This document shows positions 1 to 14,383 of a stretch of 14,436 nt of DNA, in pieces. The notes beneath the pieces were generated by a model, which did not search any database, was not told where the DNA came from, and saw only the letters and a program-made list of their open reading frames with translations. The position numbers and the translations under genes are program-made. Source of the stretch: Candidatus Zophobacter franzmannii (GTDB lineage: Bacteria > Cloacimonadota > Cloacimonadia > Cloacimonadales > JAFGVF01); NCBI GenBank assembly GCA_030765245.1, contig JAVCCX010000076.1, forward strand, positions 1 to 14,436, read 5' to 3'. How positions within the stretch are numbered: position 1 is the stretch's first letter; each line of letters opens with the position of its first letter.

Positions 1-392
1 ATTACTTTATGACCATACTTCAGCTCATAGAACATCAACCAAAAAGGTGCTGACTCTATAAACTTCATTGATTTACATGGCCCGAAATCAACATCAATAC
101 CAAATTCTTGGGTCAACTCTTTGTGAACTATTAAAAGTTCATGATTCATCTTATTCAGGGTAAGCCTTTTGAGGTTTGGAGTAATTACAAATAGATCAAA
201 ATCGTTAAAAAGAGCTTCATTGCCATCGCGATATATAATTCCGCCTTCACCTCTACCATAGCCACCACCAAGAATAATAGACTTTATTTTCCGTGCAGGT
301 ATCCGCTTTAAAACCTCTTCTACTACCCTCTTCATGTGTGAATCAATCAGAGCATCAAGTTTAGAAGAGCCTTCCGGTGTATACTTCCCCAT
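1..392 (-). CDS. Nucleotidyltransferase-fold protein, partial (C-terminus beyond window)
   Basis: I translated this from the reverse strand; 130 codons are visible before the window edge. The start ATG (392-390) overlaps the TAA stop of the upstream uridine kinase gene by one base (TAATG), and an AGGGA ribosome-binding sequence lies about 9 bases ahead, so coupled translation is likely. Residues 41-50 read LGGGYGRGEG, followed by NDFDLFVI (63-70) and DVDFGP (100-105). This is the Gly-rich turn, first metal-binding Asp pair and third acidic position of the Pol-beta-type nucleotidyltransferase fold. That motif set is seen in a poorly characterised family found near polysaccharide genes. The substrate is unknown; transfer of a nucleotidyl group to a sugar phosphate, lipid or protein is possible. 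It is the last visible gene of the eight-gene operon, and its pairing with a uridine/cytidine-type kinase suggests a small nucleotide-linked step. The fold is well supported; the function is not. Confidence 0.75.
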   Translation of the reverse strand, partial: MGKYTPEGSSKLDALIDSHMKRVVEEVLKRIPARKIKSIILGGGYGRGEGGIIYRDGNEALFNDFDLFVITPNLKRLTLNKMNHELLIVHKELTQEFGIDVDFGPCKSMKFIESAPFWLMFYELKYGHKV

Positions 393-1012
393 TATTTTAA
401 TCCCTGACTCAAGTAATTACAAAGGATACCTAGAACTTTGTCGAATTTCTTTTCTCCGGGAATAATCAAATCAGCATTTTTCTTACTGGGCTCAATATAT
501 TGCTCATGCATAGGTTTAACCTGTCCTAAATATTTTTTTAGTACGGAATCAATCGTATACCCTCTTTCTTGGATATCTCTATTTATCCTTCTTGCAAGTC
601 TAATATCTGCATCTGCATCCACATAAATTCTTAAATCTGCCAAGTTTACAATTTGCATGTAAAACAGGCAGAATATTCCCTCTAGTACAATTACATCAAC
701 ATCACTTATTTCAATGGCATTGGGTATTTGTTTATGAGTAATAAAGTCATAATCAGGTATCCTTACTGTTTCACCTGTAAGCAGCTTACGGATATCACTT
801 AGTAGTTTAACATGATCTATAGAATCAGGATGATCAAAATTAACCCTCACCGCCTTATTGTCTGGTAAATCACTTAAATCTCTATAGTAGTTGTCTTGCG
901 ATATATGGGCAACCTTACTATCACAAAGGATCTTCTCAATCTCCCTTGTAATGGTTGTCTTACCTGAACAGGTACCCCCAGAAATCAGGATTAGCTTTGT
1001 ATTATTAATCAA
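392..1012 (-). CDS. udk: Uridine kinase family protein
   Basis: Predicted cytosolic P-loop kinase phosphorylating uridine/cytidine to UMP/CMP in pyrimidine salvage. It has 206 residues, close to the usual length of about 210. Visible motifs are the Walker A loop GGTCSGKTT (12-20), ISQDNYY (37-43), NFDHPDSID (58-66), the IPDYDF substrate segment (85-90), the hydrophobic strand VIVLEGIF (107-114), the lid arginines RRINRDIQERG (141-151) and IEPSKKNADLIIP (173-185). All are in the order found in bacterial Udk. The start is TTG at 1012-1010: an in-frame TGA lies two codons upstream and no ATG occurs before the P-loop. It overlaps the upstream gene by 8 bases and the downstream nucleotidyltransferase-fold gene by 1 base, so expression is probably coupled. 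A salvage kinase inside a glycan operon is odd. It may feed UTP for UDP-sugars, or act on a different substrate together with its neighbour. Confidence 0.9.
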   Translation of the reverse strand: MINNTKLILISGGTCSGKTTITREIEKILCDSKVAHISQDNYYRDLSDLPDNKAVRVNFDHPDSIDHVKLLSDIRKLLTGETVRIPDYDFITHKQIPNAIEISDVDVIVLEGIFCLFYMQIVNLADLRIYVDADADIRLARRINRDIQERGYTIDSVLKKYLGQVKPMHEQYIEPSKKNADLIIPGEKKFDKVLGILCNYLSQGLK

Positions 1013-2390
1013 TGATCATACCCATAATTCTTTTTAAAATTGTTTTGTAAAATATCCCTTGCTCTCTAAGAAAGGTCGGTTCACTGGAATAAACTCGCTC
1101 ATGTATCTCTACTTCCTCAGGAAAATCTCTCCCTATGCTTTCGCTGTAGTAAAAAATCCCTGGTTTATAAAATGGAAGATCTCGAATTATATATCTATTC
1201 TCTTTGCAATCTTCAAATATCTTGTTGCCTATTAAGAGCAAATCGCCCTTAAAAAACTTTGGTAACAAGAGAAACTTATCCAATGAAAGATGAAGGAATA
1301 ATTTCAATAAAGGTGATTTTTTAGGTGTGTTAAAATTACAGAATTTCTCTGCCCTAAAGGATTTATCCATCAAGTGGTATTTCTTTAAAAAGTACTTCTT
1401 TTCCCAGTACCGGATGAAAGGGGACATCAATAGAAATGGAATCAGCTGGACTATAAACAGGATACTGGCCATAAAATATTGCACTAAAAGTTGAAGTGTA
1501 GATACCAGATATTTTTTCTCAACTCCCGATAATAGAAAGTTTTCACTCATATTGATGCTTTCACCACTAATAGCAGAAATAAGGGTATTCTTATAGACAA
1601 TCTTTCCGATTATATCAAGCTCTTGTCCAATATAGGTATTATCATAAATTATACTATCCTTAACAGTCGTCATAGAATCAACTATCGAGTTAACTCCGAT
1701 TATCACATTAGGTCCAAGTATCACCATATCATGAATCCGCGTATGATCCCCTAGCATGATTGGCTTGTCAGGACTCACAGTTTTAGGATAAGATGTATCG
1801 GCACCCATGAATACCTGATCTTCACTTGAATAACCCGGTAGCACAAAATGATTGGAGAGGTCATTGATCGCCATCATACTTAACTTGTAGTATGTTTGAA
1901 TGCTATCAATTGGAGTTATAAGCTCATTATTTTGTTGGTTAATGCATTCTAAAGTCTCTTTATAATTCTCATATTTCACAATATTAATACAACCTGAAGG
2001 GGTACTTCCAACAAGGTTATTAAGAGTATCATGACTAATATTATTCTTATCATAGTTTAAGAAATTATAACCATTGATAATCAGCAGTTCAGACTCTTTT
2101 GCAAATGAGATATTTTTTAGGTATATCTTTTTTAAGCTATCTTCCGTCTTTGAAAGGCTATAGCTAAACTTCATGCCCCACTTTGTACCATCCCCAAAAT
2201 GTTTGTTGATTTCACATGAAGGATAGTCATATACAAATCGAATCTCTTGAATTCCGATCATCTCCATCAGATCAACAAAATACTCTAGTAAAGGCTTATT
2301 GGCAATTTTCAATAAGTATGGGTCAATTCCCCTAAAGTAGTTCTTTACCCAGGCAGTTGGTTCTTCTTTGGCAATTATTAGCCCTTTCAT
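1005..2390 (-). CDS. Degenerate NDP-sugar nucleotidyltransferase / beta-helix / membrane / pseudo-PGT fusion
   Basis: A 461-residue, four-part protein. Residues 1-110 follow the RmlA/GlmU-type nucleotidyltransferase pattern (MKGLIIAKE, IANKPLLEYF, FGDGTKWGMKFSYSL). The GxGTR nucleotide loop is absent, and the metal-ligand Asp of the usual NGD motif is Tyr108 (INGYNF). Residues about 208-282 look like a left-handed beta-helix (LGDHTRIHDMVILGPNVIIG). Residues 298-323 form a hydrophobic membrane segment. Residues about 365-455 align by eye with the sugar-transferase domain encoded at 2751-3470: LSLDKFLLLPKFFKGDLLLIG matches its FSIDELPQLVNVLKGDMSLVG at identical spacing, followed by KPGIFYY for TPGITCLW. 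The catalytic Asp is kept (D371) but Glu is replaced by Lys372. Both enzymatic halves therefore look inactive. The ATG start is preceded by GGGGT; the gene begins 14 bases after the STAS gene. Possible roles are scaffold or sugar-nucleotide sensor; the function is unknown. Confidence 0.8.
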   Translation of the reverse strand: MKGLIIAKEEPTAWVKNYFRGIDPYLLKIANKPLLEYFVDLMEMIGIQEIRFVYDYPSCEINKHFGDGTKWGMKFSYSLSKTEDSLKKIYLKNISFAKESELLIINGYNFLNYDKNNISHDTLNNLVGSTPSGCINIVKYENYKETLECINQQNNELITPIDSIQTYYKLSMMAINDLSNHFVLPGYSSEDQVFMGADTSYPKTVSPDKPIMLGDHTRIHDMVILGPNVIIGVNSIVDSMTTVKDSIIYDNTYIGQELDIIGKIVYKNTLISAISGESINMSENFLLSGVEKKYLVSTLQLLVQYFMASILFIVQLIPFLLMSPFIRYWEKKYFLKKYHLMDKSFRAEKFCNFNTPKKSPLLKLFLHLSLDKFLLLPKFFKGDLLLIGNKIFEDCKENRYIIRDLPFYKPGIFYYSESIGRDFPEEVEIHERVYSSEPTFLREQGIFYKTILKRIMGMIID

Positions 2391-2404
2391 TCAGACCCCG
2401 TTTG

Positions 2405-2737
2405 TTATAAGTTAAAACTCTCTATAGCCGCATCGAGATCATCATAAATCTCAAATATTTTAAATGCCCTTGTTATTTCAAACACCATCCTTGGCTTATC
2501 AGCCATCCTAGCAATGCAAATATCGCCACCATTGGCTGTTGCTGACTTCAAGCAGGATACAATGCTCCCTAATCCTGTACTGTCTAAAAAATCCATTTTA
2601 TGCAAGTCAAAGACGAAATATCTTGTTTCTTCCATTAACTCTTTAAACAGGTTTTTTAAATTAGGAGCACTATAAGCATCTAAACGCCCGGCTATCTCAA
2701 GAACGCCAACATTGTCCTTTTTTATAAATTCGAACAC
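2405..2737 (-). CDS. Single-domain STAS (anti-sigma factor antagonist-like) protein
   Basis: A 110-residue SpoIIAA-type STAS domain with no other domain: MFEFIKKDNVGVLEIAGRLD, then VFDLHKMDFLDSTGLGSI and a C-terminal helix. The DSTGLG loop carries the serine that partner kinases phosphorylate in this family (Ser53 here). I chose the GTG at 2737-2735 because a perfect GGAGG (2743-2747) sits 5 bases ahead of it. An in-frame GTG 24 bases further upstream (2761) would overlap the preceding gene by 11 bases and has no such site. From 2737 the protein starts where STAS domains normally start. It lies 13 bases after the phosphoglycosyltransferase gene and 14 bases before the pseudo-PGT fusion gene. 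STAS proteins in polysaccharide loci are known regulators: SypA of the Vibrio fischeri syp locus controls biofilm formation through serine phosphorylation. A similar phospho-switch here is inference; no kinase or phosphatase gene is in the window. Confidence 0.88.
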   Translation of the reverse strand: MFEFIKKDNVGVLEIAGRLDAYSAPNLKNLFKELMEETRYFVFDLHKMDFLDSTGLGSIVSCLKSATANGGDICIARMADKPRMVFEITRAFKIFEIYDDLDAAIESFNL

Positions 2738-2742
2738 ATTTT

Positions 2743-2747
2743 CCTCC
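2743..2747 (-). promoter_or_regulatory. Shine-Dalgarno site deciding the STAS start
   Basis: On the minus strand this reads GGAGG followed by AAAAT and then GTG (2737-2735). It is the strongest ribosome-binding sequence seen in the operon. It argues for the internal GTG rather than the longer frame beginning at 2761. Confidence 0.75.
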
Positions 2748-2750
2748 AAT

Positions 2751-3470
2751 CTAATAGGCACCCTTACCGCTAATAACGGCAGGGATCGTTTTAATCAGTA
2801 TTTTAATATCTTGCCAGAGGCTTTTACTCTGGATGTATTGTTTATCAAGTTCAACTTGTTCACTAAAAGGGATATCACTTCTACCACCAACTTGCCATAA
2901 ACAAGTAATCCCTGGAGTGACATGTAATCGTTTTCTATCTTCCAAATTATATTCTGCTACTTCTCTTGGTAATGGAGGTCTTGGACCAACCAGGCTCATA
3001 TCACCCTTAAGAACATTAACTAATTGGGGTAATTCATCAATGCTGAATCTTCTAATGAACCTACCAACTTTTGTTACTCGTGGATCTTTCTTCATCTTAA
3101 AGATTACACCATCTTTAGATTCGTTTTCTTCAAGCAGTTGATCTTTAATCTTATCAGCATTCATTACCATTGACCTAAATTTTATAAACCCAAAGTTTCT
3201 TCCATCTTTACCAACTCGTGGGGCAGTATAGAATAAAGGTCCCGGATTATCTAAATATATTGCTATCATTGTGAAAATAAAGACTGGTAAAAGTAAGAGC
3301 ATTAGAATTATAGAACCAAGAAAATCTAATGAATGCTTGAGGAATTTGGCAAAACCAACTGTCCATTCCCAGCCCGACATTTTCAACAGAATCTTTGCCT
3401 TACTCGCCTTGCCATCATATCTGGCAATTCTATCCATTAGAAATTGATGTTGTCTCGTCCTGATTTTCAA
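2751..3470 (-). CDS. Monotopic phosphoglycosyl transferase (bacterial sugar transferase), catalytically intact
   Basis: A 239-residue membrane enzyme expected to transfer a sugar-1-phosphate from a UDP-sugar to undecaprenyl phosphate, the first step of glycan assembly on the inner face of the cytoplasmic membrane. One hydrophobic segment (about 48-73, with Pro62) precedes DNPGPLFY and the KFRSM motif (97-101). The core RRFSIDELPQL carries the Asp145-Glu146 catalytic dyad characterised in PglC-type enzymes. It is followed by LKGDMSLVGPRPPLP (154-168) and TPGITCLWQVGGR (185-197). The multi-pass N-terminal region of long WbaP-like enzymes is absent, so this is the short form. The TTG start shares TTGA with the TGA stop of the preceding gene, and AGGTG lies 5 bases upstream; an ATG at codon 12 lacks a ribosome-binding site. 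Sugar specificity cannot be read from the sequence. It is probably the committing enzyme for the whole operon. Confidence 0.92.
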   Translation of the reverse strand: MKIRTRQHQFLMDRIARYDGKASKAKILLKMSGWEWTVGFAKFLKHSLDFLGSIILMLLLLPVFIFTMIAIYLDNPGPLFYTAPRVGKDGRNFGFIKFRSMVMNADKIKDQLLEENESKDGVIFKMKKDPRVTKVGRFIRRFSIDELPQLVNVLKGDMSLVGPRPPLPREVAEYNLEDRKRLHVTPGITCLWQVGGRSDIPFSEQVELDKQYIQSKSLWQDIKILIKTIPAVISGKGAY

Positions 3471-4681
3471 TTGTTCACCTTATTCTGTTCTTTCTTCCAT
3501 GTTCGTACACGCTTTAAAAATAGTGGATTACCGATTATATATCGTCGCCACATTCTCTTGGGTTCCATCATAAGACGGAAAACCCACTCAATCCCGAGTT
3601 CACGCATCCATTTCGGTGCTCGAGGCATTGTCCCTGAGTAAAAATCAAACAATCCTCCGACACCGATAGCTGCATTGATTTGAAGTTCATGGAAATTCTT
3701 TTCTATCCATTTTTCTTGTAGAGGAACTCCAAATGCTACAAGAAGAATATTAGCTTGAGATTTATTAATTCTATCAATAACGATGTCACTTTCATTCTCT
3801 CGATCAAAATAGCCATCATTTGTGCCACATACTATTAAATCAGGGTATTTTTCTTCAAGGTTTTTTTTCATCTTTTCAGTAATACCCGGTTTTGCTCCCA
3901 ATAAAAACAATCGATATCTATTTTTCTCAACCATCTCGCAAAGATAGGGAAGCATATCTGTACCATTTACATTGTGCCTTAAGTCCTTACCTATCATAGT
4001 ACATGCCAGATTAACCCCACTACCGTCAGGGAACACATTGTCTGATTTTTCCATTATGGCTCGATATTCTTCATCTTCAAAAAGTTTATTGAAACAATCC
4101 GGATTCATGAAATAGAATTTCTCTTTCTTATTCATGTCAACCGTACGACTAATTAATTCAAGAGCTGCTGACATGGAACAATTCAAGAAATTAATCCCTA
4201 ATAAATCAATCTTCTCAGGAGTTTTGTTTGCACCAACCTTTGCTGATAATGCAAGCAAAGACTTCACTAGTATCATGAAATCCTTCTTGATTGATCTATT
4301 CTTCAAATACTCTAAATCTATGTTGTCTCGACCTTCATAGTCAATTTTGTTAATCCTTCGTATTAGCCATATACTCAAAATACCGGGTTTACCTATTTCC
4401 AGCCCACTTGTGACCTCTTCAATTGGTCTAAGTGATGACCCAATAATGTTTAACTTGCCACTGAGAACATGAGAATATAACGGCAAAGTATTAAGATATA
4501 TATGCTTAGTGTTAAACAGCTTCGCTTTTAGTGTAGAACTTGTGTTTAAATAGTATGCCTGTTTTAGGAAGCATACTTTTCCTCCAAAGAGCCTTCTTAT
4601 ACTTAGCAGCACTAGCATTGGTAGTGCTGCAAATAGAAGAACTACTAATGAAGTTACAAACTCTATCAACCTGGTTAGCAT
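3467..4681 (-). CDS. Pseudo-PGT domain fused to WecG/TagA/CpsF-family glycosyltransferase
   Basis: A 404-residue fusion. Residues 157-395 are a GT26 glycosyltransferase, the family adding the second sugar to a polyprenyl-diphosphate-sugar. Motifs are FMNPDCFNKL (191-200), FPDGSGV (217-223, with the Asp expected to be catalytic in TagA-like enzymes), NGTDM (239-243), LLGAKPG (260-266), FGVPLQEKW (317-325), GLFDFYSGTMPRAPKWM (343-359) and EWVFRLMMEPKRMWRRY (365-381). Residues 1-150 are not part of normal GT26 proteins. A hydrophobic segment (6-27) precedes YLNTLPLYSHVLSGKLNIIG (62-81), then IGKPGILSIW (96-105) and DFMILVKSLL (134-143). This follows the neighbouring sugar transferase (SIDELPQLVNVLKGDMSLVG, TPGITCLW, DIKILIKTI), but the Asp-Glu dyad has become Asn64-Thr65. 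It is probably a non-catalytic membrane platform delivering the lipid-linked acceptor. The gene starts 7 bases after the upstream GT4 gene and overlaps the PGT gene by 4 bases. Confidence 0.88.
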   Translation of the reverse strand: MLTRLIEFVTSLVVLLFAALPMLVLLSIRRLFGGKVCFLKQAYYLNTSSTLKAKLFNTKHIYLNTLPLYSHVLSGKLNIIGSSLRPIEEVTSGLEIGKPGILSIWLIRRINKIDYEGRDNIDLEYLKNRSIKKDFMILVKSLLALSAKVGANKTPEKIDLLGINFLNCSMSAALELISRTVDMNKKEKFYFMNPDCFNKLFEDEEYRAIMEKSDNVFPDGSGVNLACTMIGKDLRHNVNGTDMLPYLCEMVEKNRYRLFLLGAKPGITEKMKKNLEEKYPDLIVCGTNDGYFDRENESDIVIDRINKSQANILLVAFGVPLQEKWIEKNFHELQINAAIGVGGLFDFYSGTMPRAPKWMRELGIEWVFRLMMEPKRMWRRYIIGNPLFLKRVRTWKKEQNKVNN

Positions 4682-4688
4682 TTACTAT

Positions 4689-5846
4689 TTACAGCTCATT
4701 GACCATGTTGTAAAACTCTGTTAGGTAAGTTTTTTCTGCAAAAGTATCTCTTACATATTTATATCCTTCTTTACCCAAATCGGAGCAAAGAGAAGCATTA
4801 CTAATCAGGCTCTCAATCTTTTCAGCAAGGTCTTTTACATTGCCGGCCTTTGCGAGCAGTCCATTTTCTCCATCGTGTAACCATTCAGTTATCCCACCTA
4901 CATTGAAGGCAACTACAGGAGTTTGGTATGCAAAAGCTTCCAAGCCTACCAGACCAAATGGCTCTTGCCAGCGTGAAGGAACAACCACAACATCGGCTTG
5001 ACGATAATACCTTTCAACATCAGATGACCAGCCTACTAACTCAACTCTATCATCTAGTTTCATTGACTTTATCATACTTTTTATATTTGGTTCCTCATTG
5101 CCGGTACCGACAATAATTAATCTTACCGGATGATACACCTTACTCATTGCCTTTAACAATAAATCTACACCCTTACCCTTTATTAACTGACCAACATACA
5201 AAATCACCGGTACATTGTTTGCAGGTTTAGGCATCTTCTCACCGACATTGTAAATTGGATATAGAGTCTTAATCTTAGCTTCATCCCAGTCATTCTGAAT
5301 TAAGTTATGCTTCATATAGGATGACATAACTAATGATACATCGCAGCGTTTTATATTTTCTAATAATCTAATTTTGCTAGGAACATCAATTACTTTAGGC
5401 ATATCAGTGCTTAAATCTAACCCAAGAGAACAAAGACTACAGTAAACCTTATTGAAAGGTAATCTACAGTTCTTTCTCTTATAGATAAAGTATTTATGTT
5501 TACGAAGGCAGTAATAATCATGGTCATGGATAAAACTTATAGTCTTAAAGTTCTTCCGTAGAATCTGAAGCAATTCAGGATCACTTATTTTGTGGATGAA
5601 AGCAAGCCTACACCCGGTATCTCTCAAGATAGTCAGAACATCATTTCTTGTTCTTTTCTCATTCAAAAAGATACTTTCAAAAGGAGTATCAAATCCAACC
5701 TGATTGCCTGATTTCTTCTCAAAGAATCCATACACCTTCCACCCATCTCGTTTTAACAGGTCTGCAATCTTATGAATATAACTCTCTACTCCGCCTACAA
5801 ATCCACAGTTTTCATTCACAAAGACAATTTTTTTATCAATGTTCAT
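4689..5846 (-). CDS. GT4 family glycosyltransferase
   Basis: A 385-residue retaining glycosyltransferase with GT-B fold, probably adding a sugar from an NDP donor to the growing lipid-linked glycan in the cytoplasm. The N-terminal half has NENCGFVGGVESYIHKIADL, the acceptor-side GGxE loop. HDHDYYCLRKHKYF follows, with a nearby CSLC pair that recurs in part of the GT4 family and may bind a metal. The C-terminal half has LYVGQLIKGKGVDLLLKAM, VGTGNE, and PSRWQEPFGLVGLEAF with the complete E-x7-E donor motif (Glu295 and Glu303 from this start). I chose the ATG at 5846-5844 because GAGGG lies 4 bases ahead of it, overlapping the upstream stop. An ATG five codons earlier (5861) has no ribosome-binding site and would overlap the previous gene. 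The donor sugar is not identifiable. Confidence 0.9.
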   Translation of the reverse strand: MNIDKKIVFVNENCGFVGGVESYIHKIADLLKRDGWKVYGFFEKKSGNQVGFDTPFESIFLNEKRTRNDVLTILRDTGCRLAFIHKISDPELLQILRKNFKTISFIHDHDYYCLRKHKYFIYKRKNCRLPFNKVYCSLCSLGLDLSTDMPKVIDVPSKIRLLENIKRCDVSLVMSSYMKHNLIQNDWDEAKIKTLYPIYNVGEKMPKPANNVPVILYVGQLIKGKGVDLLLKAMSKVYHPVRLIIVGTGNEEPNIKSMIKSMKLDDRVELVGWSSDVERYYRQADVVVVPSRWQEPFGLVGLEAFAYQTPVVAFNVGGITEWLHDGENGLLAKAGNVKDLAEKIESLISNASLCSDLGKEGYKYVRDTFAEKTYLTEFYNMVNEL

Positions 5847-5853
5847 AATACCC

Positions 5854-8211
5854 TCACACATCCTTTTTATTCTTTACAATTGCTGAGAAAGTGGTCTCGT
5901 ATAACTCACTTAAGTACTCGTAAGTATATCTTTCACGAACCAACCTCTCCCCTACTTTTGCCATCTCTTTAAGTTTACTTCGTTCGCTGTATGCAAGCTT
6001 CATTTTCTCTGATAACTCATCAACGTCTTCACTTTTGAATAGATACCCGTTCACTCTTTCTTGAACCAGGTTAGGATCAACAACATCACTTTGAATAACG
6101 GGAATCCCACTAATCCAGCTCTCAACAACTACAGCTCCCGAATTCATAAATCTAACCGGGATTACATGTATATCAGCATTCCTGAGCCAACCGAGAACCT
6201 CTTCTCGCTCAACCATGCCTGTAAATATTATTCTATCTTCAAGCCCATTCTCTTCAATTATCTGCTTCATATCCTGCAAGAACTCAGGCTCATAATCATT
6301 TCTTCCAACATAAACCAACTTGGCATCGCTTAATTCTTTAGCCACGCTAACGAAAGCCTTTAAAGCTAAGTCCTGACCTTTTATATTGCAGATTCTTCCT
6401 AAGGATAAGAATACGAATTCACTTCCGACTCCATACTTGCTTCTCGGGTTTTCAACTTCTACCTCATACTCCTTCAGCAGAATCGGTACTGGTGAATATC
6501 CAACACTATCGTTATAATTACGATAGAGCTCAATCTCTTTATTAGCAATTGCATATATGAAATCCATATTTTGCATAAAGAACTTGTGATGGAATCTTGG
6601 TGGTTTTTTGGTAAGCTGGTCTTCAGCTATGAACCCCTGCTCTTTGATAATTGTTGCATAATCCAGATAATCAAAAGAACACAGTATCATTGGTTTGCCG
6701 GAAATCTTACCTGCAATGAATGCTAAGAGATTGTTATAGTTATAGGCAGGGAACATCATCAATACATCATGTTTCCCAAACAGAATCTCAAAGAATAACT
6801 CAGGACAAATGGTCCCTGCTTTTATATTTGGATAAGTCACTGGTTTATTGAAGAAATCAAACATTCTCCGAACATTTATTCCATCATATAACTCCCGGGC
6901 AGGTCTCTCTATTCTCTTCGGACAAAATACTGTTACATCATGCCCACGCTCTGCAAGCTCTTTTGCCTGGAAGTAGATATTAGTCTCAGCTCCGCCAACT
7001 TCAGGGTAAAACCTATTTGTAACTATTCCAACCTTGTATCTACAATTGTTCTGTTTCATATCTGTTTCCAGCATCTTCTTTGCCAGCTTTTCACCAACAG
7101 ATTCCCAAGTATAATCTTCAAGGCATCTATTCTTTAGATTCTCACCAAGCTCATCTGCCGCTTTTGAGTCTTTCAACAATCTAATAACTTCTAAGGCAAA
7201 TTCTTTAGGATCGTCCTTTATGATTATCTCTTCGCTACTAAAGTCAAAACCTTCAGCTCCAATGGTTGTTGTCACGATAGGTTTGCCTAAGATACCGGCT
7301 TCTAAAATTCGAGTTCTTGTACCGGATGCAATCCTTATTGGTAGTATTATAACATCAGCATCAACAATAGATTGATTTATATCATCCACCGGTCCTATCA
7401 GATTCATTCTCTTCTTATTATACACATTCATGCTATCTAATGGACCTTTACCAACTAAGTTGATGTATATATCCTTCTCCTCAAGATACTCCTCTAAATG
7501 CTGATATATGTCCTCACTAAGGTGAACTATAGCGTCAGTGTTGGCTGTAGAATTCAGAGTTCCAAAGAATAGTATGCTTGTCTCTTTGGATTTCCTTGGT
7601 GGAATTTCAATATTCTTCACTGTATTGGGTAAAATCTGGTAATTATCAATCGAGAGCCCCTTGCCATATTGTTCGACCACGAAGTCTCGCTCAACTATAT
7701 TTGAGAAAAGGAATAGATATGGTTTTTTAAAGAGTTTGCTTTCAAATCTGTTAAGTTTGAGTCTTTGCAAGAAGTAGTATCTATTCCGAAGGCTGGGTGA
7801 TTTCTCCCAGGACAAATTCGCTATCCTTGAAAAGAGCATATCAACATCAACCACAACTTTAACTTTCGGACAACAACGGGAAACTTCCCGCATCAACTCC
7901 ATATGACTAGTGAATCTAAAGAAGATATAATCAAAGTCATTCTCGATTAAAACATTCCTAAACTTCTCAATTTGTTTTTCAGAGTAGTGGAATACTGCCT
8001 CTGCTTGTGATGGACTGCCCTTTGCAGTTACCAATTGATGAGTTCCATCAGGCATTTTAGGGAAAGGCTTAGTTAGATAGTGATGGTCCTTGATAAGTAA
8101 GAGAGAACAATCAAACTGTTTTTGTAAAGAATCCCAGATGAATTTGCTTCGATTCTTATCTCCACCCCGCTCGTTTATAAACGGCAAATCGACATAAAGT
8201 AGCTTTTTCAT
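5854..8211 (-). CDS. Tandem GT4-GT4 glycosyltransferase fusion
   Basis: A 785-residue protein with two complete GT-B glycosyltransferases joined near residue 385. The first (1-380) has ILFFGTLNSTANTDAIVHL (213-231), LVGKGP (252-257) and GPVDDINQSIVDADVIILP (273-291), then GTRTRILEA (297-305), the usual donor loop of one GT4 subgroup. The second (about 392-780) starts with YKVGIVTNRFYPEVGGAETN, a fresh GT4 N-terminus, and continues with FLSLGRICNIKGQDLALKAF (601-620), VGRNDYEP and PVRFMNSGAVVVES. Here the first Glu of E-x7-E is Met689 while the second (Glu697) is kept. Two consecutive sugar additions by one polypeptide, as in bifunctional polymerising enzymes, is the simplest reading. Alternatively the second half may be an acceptor-binding domain. 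The ATG start is preceded by GAGGT with a 4-base gap. This is the first gene of the operon, followed closely by the single GT4 gene. No membrane segment is seen. Confidence 0.9.
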   Translation of the reverse strand: MKKLLYVDLPFINERGGDKNRSKFIWDSLQKQFDCSLLLIKDHHYLTKPFPKMPDGTHQLVTAKGSPSQAEAVFHYSEKQIEKFRNVLIENDFDYIFFRFTSHMELMREVSRCCPKVKVVVDVDMLFSRIANLSWEKSPSLRNRYYFLQRLKLNRFESKLFKKPYLFLFSNIVERDFVVEQYGKGLSIDNYQILPNTVKNIEIPPRKSKETSILFFGTLNSTANTDAIVHLSEDIYQHLEEYLEEKDIYINLVGKGPLDSMNVYNKKRMNLIGPVDDINQSIVDADVIILPIRIASGTRTRILEAGILGKPIVTTTIGAEGFDFSSEEIIIKDDPKEFALEVIRLLKDSKAADELGENLKNRCLEDYTWESVGEKLAKKMLETDMKQNNCRYKVGIVTNRFYPEVGGAETNIYFQAKELAERGHDVTVFCPKRIERPARELYDGINVRRMFDFFNKPVTYPNIKAGTICPELFFEILFGKHDVLMMFPAYNYNNLLAFIAGKISGKPMILCSFDYLDYATIIKEQGFIAEDQLTKKPPRFHHKFFMQNMDFIYAIANKEIELYRNYNDSVGYSPVPILLKEYEVEVENPRSKYGVGSEFVFLSLGRICNIKGQDLALKAFVSVAKELSDAKLVYVGRNDYEPEFLQDMKQIIEENGLEDRIIFTGMVEREEVLGWLRNADIHVIPVRFMNSGAVVVESWISGIPVIQSDVVDPNLVQERVNGYLFKSEDVDELSEKMKLAYSERSKLKEMAKVGERLVRERYTYEYLSELYETTFSAIVKNKKDV

Positions 8212-9427: not shown

Positions 9428-12400
9428 ATGAAAAACACGCTTTTGGTTTTATTTATTACTATAATGGCGTTGTCTTGCATTCAGTTAAATGCAATCAATG
9501 ATATTGAAGCGGTAACAGTTAAGCAAATCAAGATACTTGATTCTTCTGTTAACCACACAACACTCGAATTCACATTACCTGAATATGAAGTTGAAATCGA
9601 AGATCTCAATGGAATTGAATTTGACAAGATTGTTACCGAATGTGATGGTTTTCTCCCTGTTCAAGGATTACCGGAACTGCCGGTATTTTCTACGATGATT
9701 GCGATACCCTACCAGGGGTCGGTGTCGCTTGAAGTCGTGAACAAAACAACTCATACTTTAAGCAATTTCAGTGCTATACCTGCACAAGATTATACAGTAG
9801 AAAATCCAAGTGAACGGTCATTTTCATATGACGCAGATTTCTACAACTCAAATGATATCTATCCAACGGAAAACGAGAGCCTGTCCGATCCAATGATTGT
9901 CCGGGATTTCAGAGTTGTTGCTTTGTCCTTCAGCCCATTTACTTACAACCCGGCTACCCGTTCTTTAGAAGTTGCGGACAGGATAGTTTACAAATTGAAT
10001 TACAATAATGAACCGGGGGGAAATGAGTCCGAAACTCCCATTATGTATTCCCCGAGTTTCGTACCGGTTTACAAGGCTCTGATTGCCAATTATGATGAAG
10101 TTTTAGATAGAGAGATACCGTTTCATAACAAACGAATCTTGATCATATACGGTAACAGTGCGGATCAGAATTATCTGAATAAATTAGACGAATTTGTTAC
10201 CTGGAAGAAGCAAAAAGGTTTCGTAGTAGCAACAGCTTCAACCGCTACAACAGGAACCTCAACATCATCTGTAAAGGCTTATATCCAAACAGCATACAAT
10301 AATATAGCCACCCGCCCGGAATATGTGATACTTATCGGAGATACTTCAGGTTCTTTGGAAATTGATTGTTTTTCAGTAGGTGGTGGTTCTTCAGATTATC
10401 CATATCAACAACTTGCAGGTGGTGCTTCTGATACTCTTGGAGATATATTCATAGGTAGAATGCCTGTAGAAAATGTTACAGATTTCCTAACAATGGCGAA
10501 CAAAGTATTTATCTACGAAAGAGATACTATCCCTGCTCCTCCAACATGGTATAATCATATGCTTCTGGTAGGATATTCCGGAGCTTCCGGGCAGTCGGTG
10601 GTATATGTTAATAAGTTCTATAAATATGCCGGTCTGAGGGTAAACCCGAATTACACATTCACCGAGATTTATGGCTCCCCTACATCAACAGGAATGCAAA
10701 ACGCAATTAATAGCGGTGTGGCTTTCTTCGTTTATCGCGGATATATTGGAATGAACGGCTGGGATACTCCGTCTGAAGCATCCTTCACAAATGGAAATAA
10801 GATGTCTCATAGCATCATCCTTACTTGTTCTACAGGCAACTTTAGTGGTACCGATGCCATCGATTCCATTGTCCGTTACGGTTCTCCTGCCGCTCCTAAA
10901 GGTGCTATTACTGCTGTTGGTATGGCTACTTCAGGAACACATACTTTGATGAACAATGTTCTCTCCTCCCAGATTGGAGACTCAATTTTCAATCGGGGTA
11001 TGAGAGATATTGGTGCCCCACTTTTAACAGCAAAACTTCTGCTTTATATGATTTATCATGATTACCTTCCTTCTTATGTGATTAACTTCCCCGGTTGGTG
11101 TAACCTTATGGGAGACCCGACTGTTGAAGTTTGGGTAGGTGTACCTCAGCCCATTGTTGCGGAATATCCGGCCGAAGTATTCCCCGGTCAGACTTGTTAT
11201 CCTGTGCATGTGAAAGATAATGCAGGAAATCCTATGATTGGTGCTGATGTTACCATTCTTAACAACAACCTGCAGCTGATAATGGAAACAGATGAAAACG
11301 GAAATGCTGTCTTTGAGTTACCTGGTAATCTTGCCAACAATGATTCTTTTGTCGTTACCATTTCTCAGCATGACCATGTCCCTGTTTTTGAAACTATCGA
11401 TGTAGTGGCAGTTGATGGAATTAATGTAACCAATGCTGTATTCACAGGCGGAAACAATGACGGCAACCCTGACGCAGGTGAGACTCTTGATGTGAGCATC
11501 ACACTCAACAATCCCGGAACATCAGCCATAAACGGAGCTGTTGTCGAGATGAGCACTGATTCACCTTATATTACTATAGTGCAGAATAGTGCTGCTTATG
11601 GTGATCTTGTAGCTGGAGCTTCCGTAACAAATACAACTCCTTACCAGATTCAGATTGCCGGTAATGCCCCGGTTGAATATCAGGCAGCAATCAGATTAGA
11701 TATTGCCGGACAGAATTATACAACTTATATGGGATTGGAAATACATAATGCAGACATTGCTGTTAATAGTATTCAACTAAATGACACCAATGGTCTCCTT
11801 GAACCGGGAGAAACAACAACCCTGACTTTGAGCCTGATAAATAATGGGACAATTGCTGTTGATAACATAACAGCAGAGCTTCTCTGCGAATCTGAGCTTA
11901 TTATTCTTAACGATAATGAAGCCGTATATGGAGATTTCACTCCATCTGCTGTAATCATTAACGGAACTGATGAGATTTCCATAACAGCCAGAAATCATTT
12001 GCTGTCCGGTTATGATGTGGAATTCACTCTTCATATTTTCAATGATAATGGTTATGATACTTCTCAGCAGATTTACATTCCGACCGGAACACCCGATATC
12101 GGAAGCCCCACAGGACCGGATGCCTACGGACATTTCATTTATCATAGTGCTGATACTAACTGGATTGAATCACCGGAATACAACTGGATCGAGATTGCCC
12201 CCGCAGAAGGTGGTCCAGGAACACAGTTTACAAGCATCACTGACAACGGGACAGACGGAGGTGACGGTGATATTACAGGTGCCGACACAATAGATAACAC
12301 TAATCTGCCGTTTGATTTCAGGTTCTATGGTGTGGATTACGACGAAGTCTATATCTGTTCAAACGGATTCTTCACCTTTCTTCCAACTGAAGTTGGAACT

Positions 12401-14383
12401 TTCAGAAACTTCCCAATACCCGGACCAATGTGTCCGGATCCTCTGATTGCCCCGTTCTGGGATGATCTGGTATACAATCAGACAGGAAGCGGAATTTTCC
12501 ATTGGTATGACTCTGTCAATCATCTCTTTGTAATTGAATGGTATAATGCCAGGAATGGGTTTGATACATCATATACCGAACAATTCCAAGCTATCTTATA
12601 TGATCCTGAATATCACTCAACTGCGACCGGAGATGGAAAGATAAAACTTCAATACCATACTTTTAATGATATTGACGCCGGTAATACCAGCTCATATCCC
12701 CCAACCTGCGGTCAATTCAGTACCATCGGGGTAAGTGATCATACAGGGACTGATGGAATACAGTATGTATTTGATCTTGAGTATGCCCCTACTGCACAAC
12801 CTATTACTGACGGTACTGCTCTACTGATATCCGGAGAGCCGTATCTGAATATAAACCCATATCTGGTTTACGAAGATGTAGCAGTTACAGAAGCTAACGG
12901 AAACGGATTCAATGAGCCGGGTGAATTTATTGATATTGATATATCAATCATGAATATGGGACTGACTGATGCTACGAATGTTACAGCTACGATATCCTCA
13001 ACAGACCCCAACATAGGAATTATGCTCGGAACAGTTAATTATTCTTTCATTGCCGGATCAGATGGAACTTCCTGGTGCGATACTCCCTTCAGTGTGATGA
13101 TATCTCCAATTGCACCAAATCAGTATGTGATACCTTTAACCTTAACTCTGGAAACGGAGGATGATTCATGGATAATGTATACTTCATTAACCGTAACATC
13201 ACCTCACTTTGAAATTCTGGATGCTTTCATTTATGACTCAGCTTCCGGAAATGGCAATGGTGTTCCTAATATCGATGAAACCCTTGATTTAGTGGTAAAT
13301 ATTTATAACCCTGGATTAGACCCGATGAATAATGTTACAACAAATTTCTACTGCCAGAATAATCCACTTACAATAGTTAATGCCACCCAGCAGATCAATT
13401 CCATCCCTGCTTTGACAGGTAATCAACTGGCTTATACGATTCAGATTCCTTCAACCATTACAAATAACTCCTTCCTTTATTTTGTCCAAAGAGTACAAGG
13501 AACGGGAACGATTATAACTGAAAAGAATATAACTCTTCAAGTAAATGGACAAGGGGATTTGATACCTGCAGGAAAAATTAACGGAACTATCAGCGTGGAT
13601 TCAGGCACACCTGACTTTACTGAGGCACTGGTTTCTTCAGGAGAATACACAAATACAGTGCTCGGAGATGGAACATATTCTTTGTTCGCTCCTTACGGAA
13701 CTTATTCTCTCACAGGAGAATTGAACTATTACACTTCAGATTTGCTAAACAGTATCACTCTAACACCGTCTGTTCATAATCTGGATAACAACAACTTCAA
13801 TTTGCTCTATCTGGCAGAACCGACAGCCCTGGATGGTTCCTTCAATAATGGAGAGCTAACTCTTAACTGGACTGCTCCTGTTACTGACTTCACTGTAACT
13901 AACTACAATGTTTACAGGAAAATTAACAACAGCCATTCCCAGCTGATATCAACAACTGAAGGTGAAAACTACCTTGATAATTTGACTCAGGACGGAGAAT
14001 ACTTCTATTATGTAGAAGCTGTTTATCCGGAAGGGATAGGTCATCCGTCGATTCAATATACCTTTGACACAGCTGTAGCTTTAGAAGATGACATAATCAA
14101 TAAACCTATTACTGCACTGTATGGGAACTATCCTAATCCCTTCAATCCGACAACGACTATTTCCTATTCTCTGGCAACTGAAGATAAAGTGACGATAGAA
14201 ATATTCAATATTAAGGGACAGTTAGTAAAAACCCTTATAAACGAGATTCAGTCTATCGGTAGCTATTCAATAAAATGGAATGGAAAAGATAATGAAGGAA
14301 AGGATTGTGCATCAGGTCTCTATATGTACAGATTCCAAACGAAGGGAATTAACACCGTTAAGAAAGCAATGCTGCTTAAGTAA
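9428..14383 (+). CDS. Secreted gingipain-like (peptidase C25 family) multidomain protein with C-terminal sorting domain
   Basis: A 1651-residue exported protein. A signal peptide (1-22, cleavage after QLNA) is followed by a C25-type propeptide (about 30-192) and a C25 domain (about 234-570). Cys467 (ILTCSTGNF) matches the gingipain nucleophile, but the position of the catalytic His (GHG) is Tyr439 in RGYIGMNGW, so proteolysis is doubtful. A regulatory-like Ig module follows (about 575-660). Four related Ig/CARDB-like modules begin near 665, 773, 1147 and 1261, three of them with a [DN]-rich NG..-(E/A)-(P)GE loop (676-688, 786-796, 1157-1166). They are interrupted by a beta-rich domain (about 888-1136) with LPFDFRFYG and PLIAPFWDDL. 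Next come a carboxypeptidase-regulatory-like module (1382-1459) and a fibronectin-III module (1462-1546). The FlgD-like sorting domain (1567-1651) opens YPNPFNPTTTISYSL and ends KKAMLLK, indicating T9SS-type export. It is divergent from the glycan operon. Confidence 0.92.
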   Translation: MKNTLLVLFITIMALSCIQLNAINDIEAVTVKQIKILDSSVNHTTLEFTLPEYEVEIEDLNGIEFDKIVTECDGFLPVQGLPELPVFSTMIAIPYQGSVSLEVVNKTTHTLSNFSAIPAQDYTVENPSERSFSYDADFYNSNDIYPTENESLSDPMIVRDFRVVALSFSPFTYNPATRSLEVADRIVYKLNYNNEPGGNESETPIMYSPSFVPVYKALIANYDEVLDREIPFHNKRILIIYGNSADQNYLNKLDEFVTWKKQKGFVVATASTATTGTSTSSVKAYIQTAYNNIATRPEYVILIGDTSGSLEIDCFSVGGGSSDYPYQQLAGGASDTLGDIFIGRMPVENVTDFLTMANKVFIYERDTIPAPPTWYNHMLLVGYSGASGQSVVYVNKFYKYAGLRVNPNYTFTEIYGSPTSTGMQNAINSGVAFFVYRGYIGMNGWDTPSEASFTNGNKMSHSIILTCSTGNFSGTDAIDSIVRYGSPAAPKGAITAVGMATSGTHTLMNNVLSSQIGDSIFNRGMRDIGAPLLTAKLLLYMIYHDYLPSYVINFPGWCNLMGDPTVEVWVGVPQPIVAEYPAEVFPGQTCYPVHVKDNAGNPMIGADVTILNNNLQLIMETDENGNAVFELPGNLANNDSFVVTISQHDHVPVFETIDVVAVDGINVTNAVFTGGNNDGNPDAGETLDVSITLNNPGTSAINGAVVEMSTDSPYITIVQNSAAYGDLVAGASVTNTTPYQIQIAGNAPVEYQAAIRLDIAGQNYTTYMGLEIHNADIAVNSIQLNDTNGLLEPGETTTLTLSLINNGTIAVDNITAELLCESELIILNDNEAVYGDFTPSAVIINGTDEISITARNHLLSGYDVEFTLHIFNDNGYDTSQQIYIPTGTPDIGSPTGPDAYGHFIYHSADTNWIESPEYNWIEIAPAEGGPGTQFTSITDNGTDGGDGDITGADTIDNTNLPFDFRFYGVDYDEVYICSNGFFTFLPTEVGTFRNFPIPGPMCPDPLIAPFWDDLVYNQTGSGIFHWYDSVNHLFVIEWYNARNGFDTSYTEQFQAILYDPEYHSTATGDGKIKLQYHTFNDIDAGNTSSYPPTCGQFSTIGVSDHTGTDGIQYVFDLEYAPTAQPITDGTALLISGEPYLNINPYLVYEDVAVTEANGNGFNEPGEFIDIDISIMNMGLTDATNVTATISSTDPNIGIMLGTVNYSFIAGSDGTSWCDTPFSVMISPIAPNQYVIPLTLTLETEDDSWIMYTSLTVTSPHFEILDAFIYDSASGNGNGVPNIDETLDLVVNIYNPGLDPMNNVTTNFYCQNNPLTIVNATQQINSIPALTGNQLAYTIQIPSTITNNSFLYFVQRVQGTGTIITEKNITLQVNGQGDLIPAGKINGTISVDSGTPDFTEALVSSGEYTNTVLGDGTYSLFAPYGTYSLTGELNYYTSDLLNSITLTPSVHNLDNNNFNLLYLAEPTALDGSFNNGELTLNWTAPVTDFTVTNYNVYRKINNSHSQLISTTEGENYLDNLTQDGEYFYYVEAVYPEGIGHPSIQYTFDTAVALEDDIINKPITALYGNYPNPFNPTTTISYSLATEDKVTIEIFNIKGQLVKTLINEIQSIGSYSIKWNGKDNEGKDCASGLYMYRFQTKGINTVKKAMLLK

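Follow-up and report, generated by a model that had tools for sequence, protein, structure and literature searches.

The window, a 14,436-nucleotide stretch of Candidatus Zophobacter franzmannii (phylum Cloacimonadota; contig JAVCCX010000076.1, from a metagenome-assembled genome, or MAG, that is 83% complete), encodes on its minus strand one active monotopic phosphoglycosyltransferase (PGT), two PGT-type pseudoenzymes and a small STAS protein. The gene order is tandem GT4 glycosyltransferase, GT4 glycosyltransferase, pseudo-PGT-GT26 fusion, PGT, STAS, a protein designated ‘NTf’ and uridine kinase, and in the frames as called four neighbouring gene pairs overlap by 4 to 11 bases. The original prediction had one live PGT flanked by two dead relatives and accompanied by a STAS protein; profile matches and counts of catalytic residues confirm it. 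Its further idea, that the live enzyme, the pseudo-PGTs and a phospho-switch make up one conserved functional unit, is borne out by synteny across phyla, by natural chains that join pseudo-PGT, GT26 and PGT, and by co-occurrence. On balance we think it probable that the block specifies a regulated membrane assembly that initiates a Wzx/Wzy-type polysaccharide pathway.

The live enzyme (2751..3470, minus strand; 239 aa, TTG start) is, to judge from its sequence, an ordinary member of the monotopic PGT family: it resembles WbaP and PglC, its Bac_transf domain lies above the cut-off (PF02397, 2.1e-65, 220 bits), and its catalytic pair, D145-E146, is invariant in the 24/24 aligned relatives. The adjoining 404-aa protein (3467..4681, minus strand) joins a pseudo-PGT domain (residues ~1-152; PF02397, 4.8e-9) to a GT26 domain of the WecG/TagA/CpsF type (~156-400; PF03808, 2.8e-62, 209.9 bits). 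The PGT fold expected of the N-terminal domain is present, its predicted structure matching WbaP and PglC. Neither catalytic residue survives in any of the 127 GT26-linked domains counted (Asp 0/127, Glu 0/127; 124 distinct; two GT26 matches with no detected pseudo-PGT were excluded beforehand); the region ahead of the catalytic site is shortened, and G81 is retained in 127/127. The GT26 domain matches the ManNAc-transferase structures 7mpk and 5wb4, and its N-x-D-C-x-N-K, D-G-x-G and N-x-N-G-T-D positions are invariant in 18/18.

The second pseudo-PGT (~295-455) forms the C-terminal part of NTf (1005..2390, minus strand; 461 aa), behind a pseudo-nucleotidyltransferase domain (~1-180) and a left-handed beta-helix (~190-283). 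Its homology to PGTs is seen in profile matches to the PDB entries for WbaP (1.4e-8) and PglC (4.9e-8) and in the detection of Bac_transf in 19 of 20 NTf members, the window's own being the exception; a fold search with the full-length model gave no PGT among the matches listed, the N-terminal domains having filled the list. Three matches shorter than 421 aa and the 12 lowest matches (other nucleotidyltransferases) were excluded from the set, and in the 105 sequences kept the catalytic Glu is never present: the position holds Lys in 92, Leu in 7, Arg in 4, and Ile and Phe in one each. Of the PGT core, G388 is kept in 105/105 and P410 in 104/105; where the active PGT has GPRP, most NTf domains have a GN-type sequence instead.

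Relatives within and beyond the phylum rule out an oddity unique to one MAG. Among 124 genomes of the phylum, 25 carry an NTf orthologue (E ≤1.4e-30; next match 1.9e-7), including a same-genus relative whose 3795-base contig matches NTf residues 1-249 at 70% identity. The module-type PGT (at least 60% identity; next 45%) occurs in 26, namely all 25 NTf genomes and one further genome that is 67% complete. STAS (E ≤8.1e-29) was detected in 27 genomes: G046, G047 and G064, which lack NTf, and 24 NTf genomes; in the 25th NTf genome, G088, the STAS copy is interrupted (1.3e-20). Outside the phylum, NTf loci are titled Lentisphaeria (Victivallis vadensis DSM 14823 among them), Desulfobulbales (including Desulfogranum japonicum DSM 18378 and Desulforhopalus vacuolatus DSM 9700), Desulfobacterales (one MAG), Delongbacteria (L112 and L130, with no PGT within reach) and Rhodospirillaceae (L131, a short contig). 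The last title is possibly a mislabelling, as are those of L099 and L100 (Armatimonadetes/Armatimonadota), whose counterparts G069 and G070 are placed in the window's phylum. The co-occurrence anticipated for related genomes was found: across 45 NTf loci (26 from Cloacimonadota contigs, of which two belong to a single genome, plus 19 further loci), a same-strand STAS gene is no more than 11 kb away in 40 and a same-strand PGT gene in 38, counts in which several misses fall at contig ends and a few matches are fragments. In D. japonicum and D. vacuolatus, STAS genes flank NTf on either side.

Dead and live domains are joined in single chains of pseudo-PGT, GT26 and PGT (645-719 residues): 11 such chains stand among the 120 GT26 relatives listed out of 1653 matches, and the terminal PGT domain keeps DELPQ in 11/11. 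The two named carriers, D. japonicum and D. vacuolatus, are both Desulfobulbales, and in L117 (titled Desulfopila) and L123 the pseudo-PGT-GT26 and PGT genes are separate and adjoining. GT4-GT26 fusions with no detectable pseudo-PGT occupy the same module position in L066 (5549-7504), L067 (11236-13221) and L070 (5251-7356). Genes for later steps were seen in relatives: Poly_export and Wzy_C above cut-off in L069, with Wzz and GNVR below cut-off, downstream of NTf; MatE/Polysacc_synt above cut-off in L107; and a flippase-like gene in D. japonicum. The window's contig ends before any export or polymerase genes would be reached. Downstream of NTf, L069 also has a gene for a type I phosphodiesterase of ~380 aa (11064-12209; PglZ below cut-off).

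The ‘paralogous decay in tandem’ that had been offered to explain the pseudoenzymes finds no support in a tree of 59 domains (its input included 21/22 A7 rows, 11/24 A4 rows, five fusion PGTs and two other PGTs). Each pseudo-PGT type forms one cross-phylum group, separate from all included active PGTs, with support of 100/100 for the NTf type, 100/93 for the GT26 type and 93/98 for the active enzymes, in a tree with long branches and a midpoint root. Recent tandem decay is thereby made unlikely; the pseudo-PGTs therefore appear to be long-standing components of the module.

The putative switch is a stand-alone STAS protein (2405..2761, minus strand; GTG start; PF01740, 1.9e-18) with a predicted phospho-acceptor, Ser61, in D-S-T-G-L-G. 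Asp60-Ser61 is invariant in 21/21 aligned sequences, and Asp-Ser is present in the 15/15 read from other phyla. Besides this protein the MAG has one weak STAS match (2.7e-5), and it encodes a single SpoIIE-family protein, 555 residues of receiver, PP2C and HATPase domains, as candidate kinase and phosphatase. GT2 and GT4 genes follow the regulator gene, a grouping found in the six loci inspected from families f1 and f2 (with GT2 and GT4 fused in two), and a TPR-PAS gene is divergent from it (L178, 3-1646, minus strand). A relative of the latter (L186, 249-2969, minus strand) is a complete histidine kinase, and this protein is likely to be the cognate sensor of the regulator.

Regulator and module also tend to occur together. 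In families f1, f2 and f7 (53 genomes, a set picked after the data were seen), all 14 genomes with a near full-length regulator fall among the 16 with STAS. Genus g10 has regulator, STAS, module PGT and NTf in 6/12 genomes and none of the four, at the same match level, in the other 6. Fisher tests of these associations ignore shared ancestry. A same-strand run of STAS-regulator-GT2-GT4 and, farther on, pseudo-PGT-GT26-PGT-NTf is present in 4/12 Lentisphaeria-type loci, the regulator standing directly after STAS in L113 and L124 and, by similarity, also in L114 and L115; it is farther away in L110, and the other loci of this type are short or without it. In family f10, 6/11 NTf genomes (G069, G072, G082, G086, G088 and G090) have a PP2C-HATPase gene of 33-39% identity on the contig that carries the PGT gene, at a distance of 6 to 11 kb, and in L190 and L191 such a gene adjoins an extra STAS copy, without GT2/GT4 genes. 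The D. japonicum and D. vacuolatus clusters contain a receiver-PP2C gene; in L123 a HATPase gene adjoins STAS.

A PGT yields undecaprenyl diphosphate-linked sugar and uridine monophosphate (UMP), and a GT26 enzyme attaches the second sugar. In the physical complex that we infer, the small live PGT would transfer a sugar-1-phosphate onto undecaprenyl phosphate, and GT26, tethered next to the PGT in the membrane through its own dead PGT domain, would add the second sugar; most simply, the dead domains would bring both GT26 and NTf to the PGT there. NTf is best read, by analogy, as a non-catalytic regulatory subunit, because its fold relatives include GMPPA, a catalytically dead regulator that binds GDP-mannose (PMC11228364), and because WbaP carries an accessory domain that senses nucleotides (PMC10942596). 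The 239-residue PGT of the window is too short to contain such a domain. The nucleotidyltransferase-fold/beta-helix head of NTf would then probably be a GMPPA-like sensor of a nucleotide sugar or nucleotide, docked at the same site by its dead PGT domain. The STAS protein would be the on/off input, its serine phosphorylated and dephosphorylated by the receiver/PP2C/HATPase protein; one form (our guess is the unphosphorylated one) would engage the PGT/pseudo-PGT assembly and set initiation. Gating of this kind is proposed as a parallel to Myxococcus xanthus, in which EpsW~P activates the PGT EpsZ (PMC12802240).

Several observations that weigh against this assembly also lend substance to its alternatives. 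The catalytic Asp is still there in 85/105 NTf domains, which together with the predominant Lys at the Glu position might mean that one or both pseudo-PGTs still catalyse through an altered active site; yet Asp gives way to H, N, E or G in 20/105, Glu is lost throughout, the GPRP motif has changed, and the GT26-linked domains have neither residue and a shortened pre-catalytic stretch, so that continued catalysis is most improbable. The other end of NTf might instead be an active sugar nucleotidyltransferase or acyltransferase feeding the PGT. Its N-terminal region has the sugar nucleotidyltransferase fold, with weak family matches to enzymes of the GlmU/RmlA type and source names such as NDP-sugar synthase. 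NTf also has a weak match to the NCBIfam model HepC (E 0.0017, 17.7 bits against a cut-off of 140), a link that was rejected. An active nucleotidyltransferase is disfavoured by loss of GxGxR near the N-terminus (0/105, against 8/10 related enzymes; 0/105 against 4/10 for the stricter GGxGxR) and, mostly, of the G-Asp motif in the metal-site stretch (12/105 against 8/10), and we consider a feeding role improbable, if less so than catalysis by the pseudo-PGTs.

A simpler alternative grants the pseudo-PGTs no contact with the PGT and no allostery: they would be membrane anchors only, providing a re-entrant helix and a residual lipid-binding surface. In 8 of the 18 Cloacimonadota module loci that contain GT26, no GT26-linked pseudo-PGT is detected; a stand-alone or GT4-fused GT26 takes its place there, which weakens any strict need for it. 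Also at odds with the assembly are several Lentisphaeria loci that have PGT and NTf but no GT26 close by. GT26 enzymes, as a family, use lipid-linked acceptors, which would suit an anchor. The active sites of the WbaP dimer, moreover, are 77 Å apart (PMC10942596), and that structure therefore offers no precedent for pairing a PGT with a pseudo-PGT. It is not obvious, however, why a mere anchor should have kept the PGT core (G388 and P410 in NTf, G81 in the GT26-linked domain), nor does anchoring readily explain why the pseudo-PGTs are co-inherited with one PGT subtype or why the natural fusion joins a dead domain to a PGT already membrane-bound; anchoring alone is, in our estimate, rather unlikely. 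Somewhat less unlikely is that the STAS/PP2C/HATPase system acts on something else, such as a sigma factor or other glycosyltransferases, and is linked to the PGT genes through shared control of the pathway. STAS and the unlinked regulator persist in G046 and G047 (69% and 81% complete), but searches there found no NTf, GT26 or module-type PGT, so that STAS may have another partner; the GT2 and GT4 genes behind the regulator in the f1/f2 loci, and the classical action of STAS proteins on anti-sigma kinases (PMC8256260), point the same way. A further point against the assembly is that the PGT gene lies apart from the STAS-NTf pair in G081, G086 and G088. Against another target, STAS and NTf remain neighbours in loci whose PGT gene is not close by (L018, L078 and L079), and in a polysaccharide locus SypA works downstream of its kinase, on a target still unknown (PMC10120452).

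Set beside known systems, the gated assembly would be a case of polysaccharide synthesis that a PGT initiates and a partner switch controls. The pseudo domains share the family fold or profile with PglC, EpsL and WbaP; unlike these, two lineages have lost Asp-Glu and are carried on GT26 or on a dead nucleotidyltransferase. As in EpsW-EpsZ, a small phospho-regulated protein is proposed to act post-translationally on the initiating PGT; there a single-domain response regulator acts on a large PGT (PMC12802240), whereas here a STAS protein and a PP2C/HATPase regulator would serve a small PGT with pseudo-PGT subunits. The polysaccharide locus syp of Vibrio fischeri likewise pairs a STAS protein, SypA, with a response regulator, SypE, that is both kinase and phosphatase (PMC4517449, PMC10120452, PMC8256260), and among the other syp genes is one for a sugar transferase, sypR (PMC6420764, on Aliivibrio salmonicida); the genome scan for NTf kept 80 loci, none of them titled Vibrio. 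Unlike GMPPA/GMPPB and eIF2B, NTf is bacterial and bears a pseudo-PGT domain. The nearest literature appears to be the SypA work and a remark, one sentence in PMC8256260, on Anabaena all4160, a STAS domain fused to a glycosyltransferase. Among the papers listed by searches of open-access literature (subscription papers lay outside the scope) there was neither a dead subunit of the PGT type nor a STAS protein with demonstrated action on a PGT.

Undecaprenyl phosphate is in limited supply, and peptidoglycan synthesis draws on it too, which is why gating of the first committed polysaccharide step matters. In November 2025 a paper presented response-regulator activation of an initiating PGT as a mechanism not recognized before (PMC12802240). 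The module, if the proposal is right, would supply a second wiring for PGT gating, what would be the PGT superfamily's first pseudoenzymes in the literature searched, and a concrete target, the PGT assembly, for STAS proteins like SypA. A broader generalization is put forward tentatively, with rather less than even confidence: the superfamily has evolved dedicated pseudoenzyme subunits that form a switchable initiation complex, in which one dead PGT carries a dead nucleotidyltransferase that senses nucleotide sugars, another carries a GT26, and STAS gates the one live PGT; the same STAS-to-PGT logic would then be the missing output of SypA-type systems. Victivallis vadensis, D. japonicum and D. 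vacuolatus are available as cultured carriers, and the natural pseudo-PGT-GT26-PGT chain is a ready structural target.

The remaining genes of the block lie at its two ends. Its first gene in the window encodes a tandem GT4 glycosyltransferase of 785 aa with two GT4 stretches (5854..8211, minus strand), followed by a GT4 glycosyltransferase (4689..5861, minus strand; PF00534, 5.7e-44); relatives of both are present in many related loci. Its last gene, for a uridine kinase family protein (392..1012, minus strand; PF00485, 2.1e-43), is followed by 391 bases to the contig end, and a uridine kinase gene is found near NTf in 10/45 loci. UMP, the by-product of the PGT reaction, inhibits WbaP (PMC10942596), and a role for the kinase in clearing or sensing UMP is conceivable. 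G047 and G046 have a remnant locus, GT4-STAS-uridine kinase (L184, 9496-12984, and L185, 6502-10002). Elsewhere in the window, on the plus strand (9428-14383), is a gene for a 1651-aa C25 (gingipain-family) peptidase; besides a propeptide, the protein has FlgD-Ig/Por secretion-tail domains at its C-terminus, and it seems to have no connection with the glycan block.

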